Positions 20,154 to 22,839 of a stretch of 64,000 nt of DNA are shown piece by piece. Location of the stretch: contig NZ_CP100451.1 of assembly GCF_024227715.1 (NCBI RefSeq), positions 1 through 64,000 of the forward strand, written 5' to 3'. Source of the DNA: Halomarina litorea (GTDB taxonomy: Archaea > Halobacteriota > Halobacteria > Halobacteriales > Haloarculaceae). How positions within the stretch are numbered: position 1 is the stretch's first letter; every line of letters starts with the position of its first letter. A program made the translations under genes and the position numbers. The notes under the pieces are model-generated. The model had not been told where the DNA came from, searched no databases, and was given only the letters and a program-made list of their open reading frames with translations.

Positions 20154-20429
20154 ATGTACACCATCGCAGGCATCATCTTTGTCGATTGTTCTTACAAATC
20201 AAAAACAGGGGCATCACTTACTCATAGAATCTAAATCGTGAGCTGGCTTCGTCTGGGTTCGCCGCATCGCACGGGGCCAAACGACTGCGAGGGGAGCGTA
20301 TGCAGTCACTGTTTGAGTGGCTCTGTTGAAATACTCAGAATTTGATACGTACGACGTACAACATACAGAGGGTGTATGTAGCGAAGAAGACACCGGCGAT
20401 AGATGGGGCAGAAGCAGGTCCCTACGTGA

Positions 20430-21134
20430 TTAGACGGACTCGGTGAGGCCGCCATCAACGCGGATGTTCTGGCCGGTAATATAACTTGACTCAGGAGAGA
20501 CCAGATACGCGACTGCGTCCGCTATCTCGTCCGTTCGTGCTGGTCGGCCCATCGGGATTCGCGCTCGCGTCTCCTCGTCTATCTCGTAACTGTCGACGAA
20601 TCCCGGCTGGACGGTGTTCATTCGAATCCCACTGGCGGCGTACTGGTCGGCATAGAGCTTGGTGAAGCTCCCGAGTCCAGCCCGCAGCACCGACGAAACG
20701 GGGAACGTCACGGAGGGCTCGAACGCCGAGAACGTAGAGATGTTCACAAACGCCCCGCCACCCTGCTCCTCCATGATGGGCGTGATGAGTCGCGCCATCC
20801 GAACCGTATTGAGCAGTACGAGATCGAGCCCCTCGTGCCACTCTTCGTCCGAGATATCGAGCAGGTCGCCGGACGCCGGGTGGCCCGTGTTGTTCACCAC
20901 TGCGTCGATACGCCCGTAGCGTTCCTGTGTCGTCTCGACGAGCGCCGCCAAGTCGTCGTAATTCGTCACTGACCCCTCGAATCCGGTCCCGCCGAGTTCT
21001 TCTGCGACCTCGACGGCGCTCCCTGACCGTGACAACAGTACCGGAGTGTAGCCATCCTCACTCAGTTTCCGTGCGCATGCCTCGCCGATTCCACTTCCAG
21101 CAGCAGTCACCACAGCGACCTTTTGTTCGTCCAT
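20430..21134 (-). CDS. Short-chain dehydrogenase/reductase-like protein with altered active site
   Basis: A 234-residue Rossmann protein of the classical SDR type. The cofactor motif is TAAGSGIGEA near residues 10-19 (TGxxxGxG variant), followed by NNTG near 82-85. Where YxxxK is expected the sequence reads SSVLRAGLGSFTK, aligning as S in place of Tyr and R in place of Lys, so normal SDR catalysis looks impaired. The C-terminal PGFVDS and SSYITGQNIRVDGG segments are intact. Start at MDEQKVAVV; an ATG 15 nt upstream is possible. Divergent from the bat-type regulator inside the same mobile unit. Confidence 0.85.
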   Translation of the reverse strand: MDEQKVAVVTAAGSGIGEACARKLSEDGYTPVLLSRSGSAVEVAEELGGTGFEGSVTNYDDLAALVETTQERYGRIDAVVNNTGHPASGDLLDISDEEWHEGLDLVLLNTVRMARLITPIMEEQGGGAFVNISTFSAFEPSVTFPVSSVLRAGLGSFTKLYADQYAASGIRMNTVQPGFVDSYEIDEETRARIPMGRPARTDEIADAVAYLVSPESSYITGQNIRVDGGLTESV

Positions 21135-21169
21135 ACTCTGTGTATCCACGCTGATGGGATGGGCACGTA

Positions 21170-21185
21170 ACCTGCTATAGCAGGT
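21170..21185. promoter_or_regulatory. 16-bp perfect palindrome between SDR and regulator genes
   Basis: ACCTGCTATAGCAGGT is fully symmetric and sits in the 94-bp divergent space, 36 bp from the SDR start and 44 bp from the regulator start. It is the natural candidate operator for the adjacent HTH protein. Confidence 0.55.
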
Positions 21186-21228
21186 GCCAACCCGTCTTGC
21201 TTTTCATTGGTGACTGCTAGACACGACT

Positions 21229-21936
21229 ATGAGTGCGACCGAGTCTGCAGAAACACTACGACTCACCTTAGATGTCCGGCATCCTGGGTGTTGGGTGCTG
21301 GACGTGACGACACAGGTTGACGTCGGTTTCTTGGGATACGCAATTTACACTCGTGAGAGTGGCAGAGCAAGCACGCACTACACCGTCTATGGTGACGAAC
21401 AGGACACTATAGAGGAGGGTCTGTCGTTGGTTCGAAACCATCCAGCGGTGTACTCAGTTTCGGAGATGGCCCACGGGTACCGACACGGTCGCTCCCCAAC
21501 ACCTGGCAATGTAACCCGTGACTTGTTAGTCGAGCATGATGGAAAGACACAGATCAGCGACGCGTTCACATCTCGTGGGTTCGTCTATGGTGCCCCAGTT
21601 GATGCCTTCGGAAAGACCGAGCACTGGACGGTCCTCTCGAATGCCACTCGTGAGACGATTCAATCACTGCTCAATGAAATTCGAGACGAACGAGACGCAG
21701 AGATTGTCGTGGAGTCGATTACCAGTGCCAGCCGTACGGAGGGCTCGAATTCACTCCCCCTCGATGGACTCTCGCATCGGCAGCGGGAAATCTTTCAGCT
21801 GGCACGGAAACGAGGGTACTACCAGCACCCAAAGGCCGTCACAGCGGGAGAGCTGGCTACAGAGTTGAGTATTACAACTTCTACGTTCCACGAACATCTG
21901 CACAAAGCAGAAGCGAAAGTACTCGACTTGTCGTAG
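21229..21936 (+). CDS. Bacterio-opsin-activator-type HTH regulator (HTH_10)
   Basis: A 235-residue protein. The N-terminal 150 residues resemble the ligand/sensor part of haloarchaeal Bat-like regulators without PAS or GAF domains. The C-terminal HTH_10 is clear: LDGLSHRQREIFQLARKRGY, then KAVTAGELATELSITTSTFH and EHLHKAEAKVLD. The protein probably controls the divergent SDR gene through the palindrome between them. It is carried by the IS6-end-bounded unit. Confidence 0.85.
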   Translation: MSATESAETLRLTLDVRHPGCWVLDVTTQVDVGFLGYAIYTRESGRASTHYTVYGDEQDTIEEGLSLVRNHPAVYSVSEMAHGYRHGRSPTPGNVTRDLLVEHDGKTQISDAFTSRGFVYGAPVDAFGKTEHWTVLSNATRETIQSLLNEIRDERDAEIVVESITSASRTEGSNSLPLDGLSHRQREIFQLARKRGYYQHPKAVTAGELATELSITTSTFHEHLHKAEAKVLDLS

Positions 21937-22244
21937 GGTCTGACCAGATGAACTTGAGTTTACTCAGATCGCTCTTTTCCGGTTCAGGCTCTTGACCGAC
22001 TCGCGCGTTGTATGCAGCACGGCTCCGAGAACATATCACTGATTGAGGGTTTCAACAGAGCCGCTTGAGTCTAAATGCTGTCTGAAACCGCTCCCACGAA
22101 CTCCCGGTTACTCAGAGAGAGAGCGTGCATACGGGAATACATATCCATCAGATTGAGCAGACCAGCAAATCGTGAATGGTGACTATACTCATTGGTCGGT
22201 TTCGATTCGAATATTTCTCGCCCTGATATCCACCCCTTAATAAG

Positions 22245-22264: not shown

Positions 22265-22286
22265 AATGAATCATTCTAGCTGCACT

Positions 22287-22703
22287 ATGGCAACGACAGA
22301 AACCCTCGAAACGGAAATCTGGGGCCGTCCCGTCACGTTCGACTACTCCGAGCACTGGGTCGGATACTCACTGTTCCTCCTTCGGATCGTGATGGGGTGG
22401 ACGCTCTTCCAGGGCGGCGTCACGAAGCTCGTCACGTATCTGGACGCCAACCCGGAGAACAACTGGACTGCCGCTGGCTTCCTGATGAACGCCGTCCCGG
22501 AAGGTAATCCGCTGATGGGATTCTGGGGGAGTATGGCTGGGAACCCACTCATCGACCAGCTGAATATGTGGGGGCTCACGTTGACCGGACTCGCACTTAT
22601 TCTGGGTGCGTTCGGTGCTGGGCGGATTCTCGGGCTGGATGCCTATCTCGAAGATCTCGAGGTCGTGCAGTCCAATCCGTGGCTCCGGTACTTGCTCGGG
22701 TGA
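22287..22703 (+). CDS. DoxX/TQO small-subunit-like protein with probable internal deletion
   Basis: A 138-residue protein related to DoxX/DoxD (TQO_small_DoxD). The N-terminal part has the family pattern (YSLFLLRIVMGWTLFQGGVT), and the tail is LGLDAYLEDLEVVQSNPW. Full-length haloarchaeal relatives, as I recall them, have two more TM helices between LILGA and FGAGRILG; here these are joined directly, with short repeated sequence at the join (near 22605-22620), so an in-frame deletion is likely. If so, the protein lacks part of its membrane core. Start at MATTETLETE; ATG at 22266 is an alternative. Confidence 0.65.
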   Translation: MATTETLETEIWGRPVTFDYSEHWVGYSLFLLRIVMGWTLFQGGVTKLVTYLDANPENNWTAAGFLMNAVPEGNPLMGFWGSMAGNPLIDQLNMWGLTLTGLALILGAFGAGRILGLDAYLEDLEVVQSNPWLRYLLG

Positions 22704-22839
22704 TTCGAAAGGAAGCCTCGAAAACGTCCTCCTGTACCGTTTTCGTATGTCGACGAAACGTCGGTGAACCCTCTGCCAGGGGGCTTGCTTTCGAATCGTA
22801 ACGACAATCGCATTGAATCATGCCGACGTATCACTAGAT

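Follow-up and report, generated by a model that had tools for sequence, protein, structure and literature searches.

The window, the 64,000-nucleotide stretch of DNA analysed here, carries a 1744-bp element that is very probably a mobile insertion cassette (MIC), an IS derivative that carries passenger genes and is non-autonomous. The element has the terminal repeats of an IS family, carries passenger genes without a transposase, and inserted as a unit with duplication of its target, the combination that defines a MIC. Its insertion point was shown to lie between the gene for an ArsP-type permease and one for a small membrane protein. MITEs are short and non-coding, and the element, at 1744 bp with two genes, is neither.

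Structure of the window element

The features of the element are listed in Table 1. The initial annotation described perfect 13-bp inverted repeats, flanking octamers that match at 7 of 8 positions, and a bat-type HTH gene with a divergent SDR gene, a 16-bp palindrome between them and no transposase. All of these were confirmed, the gene content by Pfam and tblastn. Searches with IS5 and IS6 transposases found none inside the element, whose contents are the SDR and HTH_10 genes only.

Table 1. Coordinates of the window element and its internal features
Feature	Position	Strand	Description
Left target-site duplication copy	20311..20318	.	GTTTGAGT, ancestral form; kept as a single copy at the G345 empty site
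Left terminal inverted repeat, 13 bp	20319..20331	+	GGCTCTGTTGAAA
Arm A	20319..20384	+	Terminal repeat, ..TGATA.., then subterminal motif ACATACAGAGGGTGTATGT (20361-20379)
Passenger gene 1, SDR, 239 aa from GTG	20430..21149	-	PF13561 1e-48, PF00106 (Pfam)
16-bp palindrome, candidate operator	21170..21185	.	ACCTGCTATAGCAGGT, between the divergent SDR and HTH_10 genes
Passenger gene 2, bat-type regulator, C-terminal HTH_10, 235 aa	21229..21936	+	PF04967 6e-16 (Pfam)
Arm B	21988..22062	-	Terminal repeat, ..TGATA.., then subterminal motif CGTGCTGCATACAACGCGCGAGTC (21998-22021)
Right terminal inverted repeat, 13 bp	22050..22062	-	TTTCAACAGAGCC, exact reverse complement of GGCTCTGTTGAAA
Right target-site duplication copy	22063..22070	.	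GCTTGAGT; one later T->C change, 7/8 match; changed copy identified via G345

With up to 2 mismatches allowed, the 13-bp end occurs at only two sites in the 64 kb, both exact. The 3.88-Mb host genome contains five exact copies, including these two, and no copy of a reversed control pattern. The palindrome occurs once in the host genome. Arm A can be aligned with the A arms of 12 other elements and has BLAST matches in other haloarchaeal ends. Arm B can be aligned with the B arms of about 20 other ends; its matches in other elements span 61-95 bp at 77-84% identity, and the cargo there is unrelated.

Empty sites define a single insertion

The flanks of the element were joined with one octamer, and 391 genomes of the class Halobacteria were searched with the product. 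Two empty sites match across the whole junction, G345:C4 at about 92% and G330:C3 at about 91%. The G345 junction reads TCACTGTTTGAGTCTAAATGCTG, with one GTTTGAGT and the right flank directly after it. Because G345 retains this single octamer, the insertion added 1744 bp and duplicated 8 bp of target; of the two octamers, the left is the ancestral form, and a single base has since changed in the right. Two exact empty sites mark a genuine insertion rather than a chance arrangement. They rule out an ancestral locus with two decayed IS copies of separate origin, which the initial annotation had named as a refutation, and they uphold its proposal of a passenger module in place of a transposase. 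The empty site with a single octamer that it called for is the one in G345. In G047 and other relatives the permease gene and its neighbour are present without the element, and the intergenic DNA cannot be aligned.

Next to the element lies a separate, second variable stretch. The small membrane-protein gene to the right (window 22266-22703) is absent beside the permease gene in G015, G016, G022, G034 and G054, where the gene at 22813 follows almost directly after the permease gene.

The ends belong with IS5-family transposases

A first set of 69 end pairs, spaced 0.1-6.5 kb apart, was examined for 8-bp duplications. Duplications of at least 7/8 flank 34 of the 69 sampled pairs, where the chance is 0.0004 per pair. 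Among these 34, 22 enclose no transposase, 12 enclose an IS5-type transposase or its remains, and 0 enclose an IS6 transposase. A second sample took 40 further single ends, with a partner sought within 5 kb. A partner with a 7-8/8 duplication was found for 11 of the 40 (0.015 expected), and 9 of the 11 pairs lack a transposase. Since 29 of the 40 have no partner under the search used, many ends are solo, decayed or more than 5 kb from a partner. In all, 45 end pairs have a 7-8/8 duplication and 31 of them are transposase-free, counts that are not a census because sampling seeded by exact 13-bp ends misses decayed or divergent members.

The transposase bracketed by GGCTCTGTTGAAA ends is about 273 aa long, has 8-bp duplications around its elements and belongs to the IS5 family. 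It scores 211 bits against NF033579 (NCBIfam), where the cut-off is 140, and its Pfam match is DDE_Tnp_1. Across both samples, 14 duplicated GGCTCTGTTGAAA pairs enclose an IS5 transposase and none an IS6 transposase. IS6 copies fetched from the same haloarchaeal taxonomic family have the termini GGCACTGTCTAGTT, GGCGGTGTTCAGAT, GGTAGTGTTCAGAT or GGTCGTGTTTAGTT. An R-end match at C3:51981 (L001) of the host genome, 129 bp past an IS6 transposase, has no left partner at up to 2 mismatches in a 3-kb stretch. The initial annotation read the element as one IS6-type insertion of 1.74 kb. The single event stands, with empty sites in G345 and G330; the assignment to IS6 by the ends does not, given the different IS6 termini and the IS5 transposases. 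The window element encodes no IS5 transposase, though relatives with the same ends do, and is thus not itself an IS5-family IS.

Only one close copy of the IS5-type transposase is present in the host genome; it is intact, 275 aa long and encoded on another replicon. It lies in a second element, C3:76113-77378 (L002 1514-2779), which has the same ends as the window element and a perfect duplication, AACCCGGC. This element contains the transposase gene (C3:76508-77326) and an 80-aa membrane-protein ORF, and it has intact empty sites of its own in G357 and G204. Since the host copy is intact and its element shares the same ends, the window element could plausibly have been mobilised by this or a like transposase.

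Sister elements share arms but not cargo

Most of the transposase-free elements form one group, sharing a conserved pair of arms, A and B, whose first ~65 bp are alike. These arms are distinct from those of the transposase-bearing elements, the difference lying internal to the 13-bp repeat. In pairwise BLAST between elements with unrelated cargo, matches are confined to the arms, at ~50-80 bp. For example, L100 and L112 share 65 bp (91% identity) at one end and 59 bp (93%) at the other, with no match in the interior. By Pfam, single cargo genes encode an SBF symporter, BrkB, a luciferase-like protein or an alpha/beta hydrolase. Paired cargo consists of histidine kinase and MBL protein, LtrA and OsmC, HAD and an HVO_A0261-type regulator, bat regulator and DUF7344, or Cys/Met lyase and a monooxygenase-like protein. 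No recognisable transposase was found in the A/B elements whose cargo was scanned. The same transposase-free brkB element is present in L110 (301-1733) and L198 (3172-5001), 95% identical over 1400 bp from the exact end. Its hosts, G113 and G227, are congeneric, and the two insertion sites are unrelated.

Other elements with the same ends (L044, L052, L097, L099, L101 and others) carry an IS5 transposase together with extra genes. A B arm is found at the distal end of two elements with a transposase, L044 and L175, and this links the transposase-bearing and A/B groups.

The sizes of elements with these ends vary widely. Genome G254 holds two transposase-free elements of 3.7-3.8 kb with perfect duplications, L045 301-4115 with LtrA and OsmC and L046 301-4036 with histidine kinase and MBL protein. 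At the other extreme are MITEs of 124-125 bp (L037 301-425, L039 301-424 and L116 301-425) with palindromic interiors and perfect 8-bp duplications; one end of L116 is off by one base. Subterminal hairpins were considered as a general feature and rejected as too weak: the mean perfect stem is 5.26 for the A/B arms, compared with 4.61 for shuffled sequences and 5.0/4.75 for the arms of transposase-bearing elements.

The passenger genes in other genomes

Relatives of the SDR are 80-92% identical in amino acids overall and begin at an inner ATG (21134), while the window annotation begins at GTG. Close relatives (80-91%) occur without the ends and without the regulator in Haladaptatus, Natrialba, Halegenticoccus and others. 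The only other divergent SDR/HTH pair found is in Haloprofundus marisrubri (L054), at 91-92% amino acid identity. The match of L054 to the window, at 86% DNA identity, begins at the SDR stop and ends within the B arm; the rest of the window is unmatched. The palindrome is kept at 16/16 positions. A decayed B arm lies beside the HTH gene, scoring 58, where the highest of 500 shuffled scores is 40; the A-side end is not above chance, with 51 of 500 shuffles reaching its score. This pair lies at an unrelated site with a decayed B arm, so on at least one occasion outside the host species, the SDR/HTH pair and an arm moved together. The initial annotation had also proposed that an SDR/bat pair always found without the ends would count against it, and L054 retains a decayed copy of one arm. 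In a plasmid collection, the 40 matches listed cover SDR or HTH genes only, and none covers 80% of the element.

In an alignment of the SDR clade (window 20430-21149, L053-L059 and L030-L032), the YxxxK motif has Ser and Arg in the positions normally held by the catalytic Tyr and Lys. The substitution is seen in haloarchaeal members as well as in two relatives from bacteria. From the altered motif, the clade is possibly a non-canonical enzyme.

Distribution across Halobacteria

Of 391 haloarchaeal genomes, 182 contain the passenger-type end pattern, and they represent 54 of 86 genera. The reversed control of this pattern is absent from all genomes listed. The transposase was scored as present in a genome at E <= 1e-70, a strict cut-off. 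Ends and IS5-type transposase occur together in 99 genomes, the transposase alone in 68 and neither in 141; the other 83, all with passenger-type ends, have no close transposase match at this cut-off. The transposase is thus present in 99 of 182 genomes with ends and 68 of 209 without (odds ratio 2.5, p 1.6e-5, uncorrected for relatedness).

Proposed mechanism and alternative explanations

We propose that the 13-bp repeats and the ~65-bp A/B arms mark a family of haloarchaeal elements on which an IS5-family DDE transposase acts, creating 8-bp duplications. The place of the transposase between the arms is taken by the SDR gene and, divergent to it, the gene for the bat-type regulator. A related IS5-family transposase would act on the ends in trans, the arms may have a role in mobilisation, and the bat-type protein may regulate the SDR through the palindrome. 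Judged from the shared ends, mobilisation in trans by the 275-aa transposase of the host would be consistent with the data. Since the A/B arms are unlike the transposase-bearing arms internal to the 13-bp repeat, the true cognate transposase could be another.

That last point leads to an alternative in which a different, unrecognised transposase with its own A/B arms moves the cassette, the 13-bp repeat being convergent or a remnant. The tnp-proximal arms of the IS5 elements do lack the subterminal A/B motifs. Yet the A/B elements with scanned cargo hold no such enzyme that could be recognised, L044 and L175 combine a transposase with a distal B arm, and the two groups have both the 13-bp repeat and the 8-bp length of the duplication in common. 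We regard this alternative as improbable. An IS6-family insertion with a replaced transposase is highly improbable: haloarchaeal IS6 elements also have 8-bp duplications and ends starting with GG (PMC6807381), but the IS6 termini fetched here differ from GGCTCTGTTGAAA, and the count within duplicated pairs is 0 IS6 to 14 IS5.

The element could also be a collapsed compound transposon. Two direct IS copies would have flanked the genes, the array would have moved, and the transposases would then have been lost, leaving the outer ends. The end result would look identical, and elements with a transposase plus cargo exist (L044, L052, L099, L101). However, the interior of the window element contains no transposase remnant. 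The same transposase-free A/B pair also surrounds many unrelated genes, and repeated independent collapse is an unlikely source of that pattern. We therefore give a collapsed compound transposon little credence, and the object inserted here, a 1744-bp unit with an 8-bp duplication, is unchanged either way.

Beyond the window element, there is an even chance that the A/B elements are a dedicated Halobacteria lineage of transposase-less gene carriers that reuse standard arms and are moved in trans by IS5-family transposases. The arm of such a lineage would consist of the 13-bp repeat, a TGATA box and an ATACAG/GTAT subterminal motif, and the cargo of single genes or gene-regulator pairs. If so, single genes would be shuffled class-wide, with an effect comparable to that of integron cassettes though not by their mechanism.

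Significance and comparison with known systems

These elements look like a widespread haloarchaeal route for moving single genes that current annotation overlooks. The cassettes are invisible to routine IS annotation because they contain ordinary genes and no transposase. Since the ends occur in nearly half of the 391 genomes, such cassettes may account in part for the patchiness with which single genes occur among haloarchaea. The arms offer a usable search pattern for a census of such cassettes, and the claim is directly testable in laboratory haloarchaea. The MIC is a kind already known from bacteria; the class-wide haloarchaeal family is undescribed in the literature searched, which covered few subscription journals. 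That literature yielded no haloarchaeal MIC family with many cargos and does not mention the 13-bp end in connection with an IS.

The ISH1 group comprises haloarchaeal IS5-family IS with 8-bp duplications. Haloarchaeal IS5-family IS have in common with the transposase-bearing relatives of the window element a related transposase (NF033579) and 8-bp duplications, whereas the window element has neither their transposase gene nor their inner arms. Transporter IS (tIS) are IS copies with a transposase and passenger genes (PMC3129680). L044, L052, L097, L099, L101 and others are tIS-like in keeping an IS5 transposase, unlike the window element. The nearest described haloarchaeal object is the ISH2-type element/HqIRS32 of Halobacterium and Haloquadratum, about 520 bp long with one short ORF and counted as a MITE (PMC3119063). 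It resembles the window element in being haloarchaeal and transposase-free, with terminal repeats and a non-transposase ORF; its single short ORF contrasts with the window family, which spans 0.5-4 kb and carries full-length genes of many families.

The closest parallels in anatomy are bacterial. MIC231 of Bacillus cereus has IS231/IS4-family ends (Chen 1999 and De Palmenaer 2004, as cited in PMC3913671 and PMC2266710). In the account given in PMC3913671, IS231A mobilised MIC231 in trans, and mic-qnrD is built in the same way. A 2008 survey saw modular passenger-carrying elements around the IS231 group only (PMC2266710). Like the window element, these MICs have a passenger between IS ends, no transposase, a target duplication and modular ends. 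Movement in trans is thought to apply to them and was shown for MIC231; for the window element we infer it. MIC231 is bacterial with IS4-family ends, whereas the window family is archaeal, with IS5-linked ends, a distinct A/B arm pair and diverse cargo across the class.
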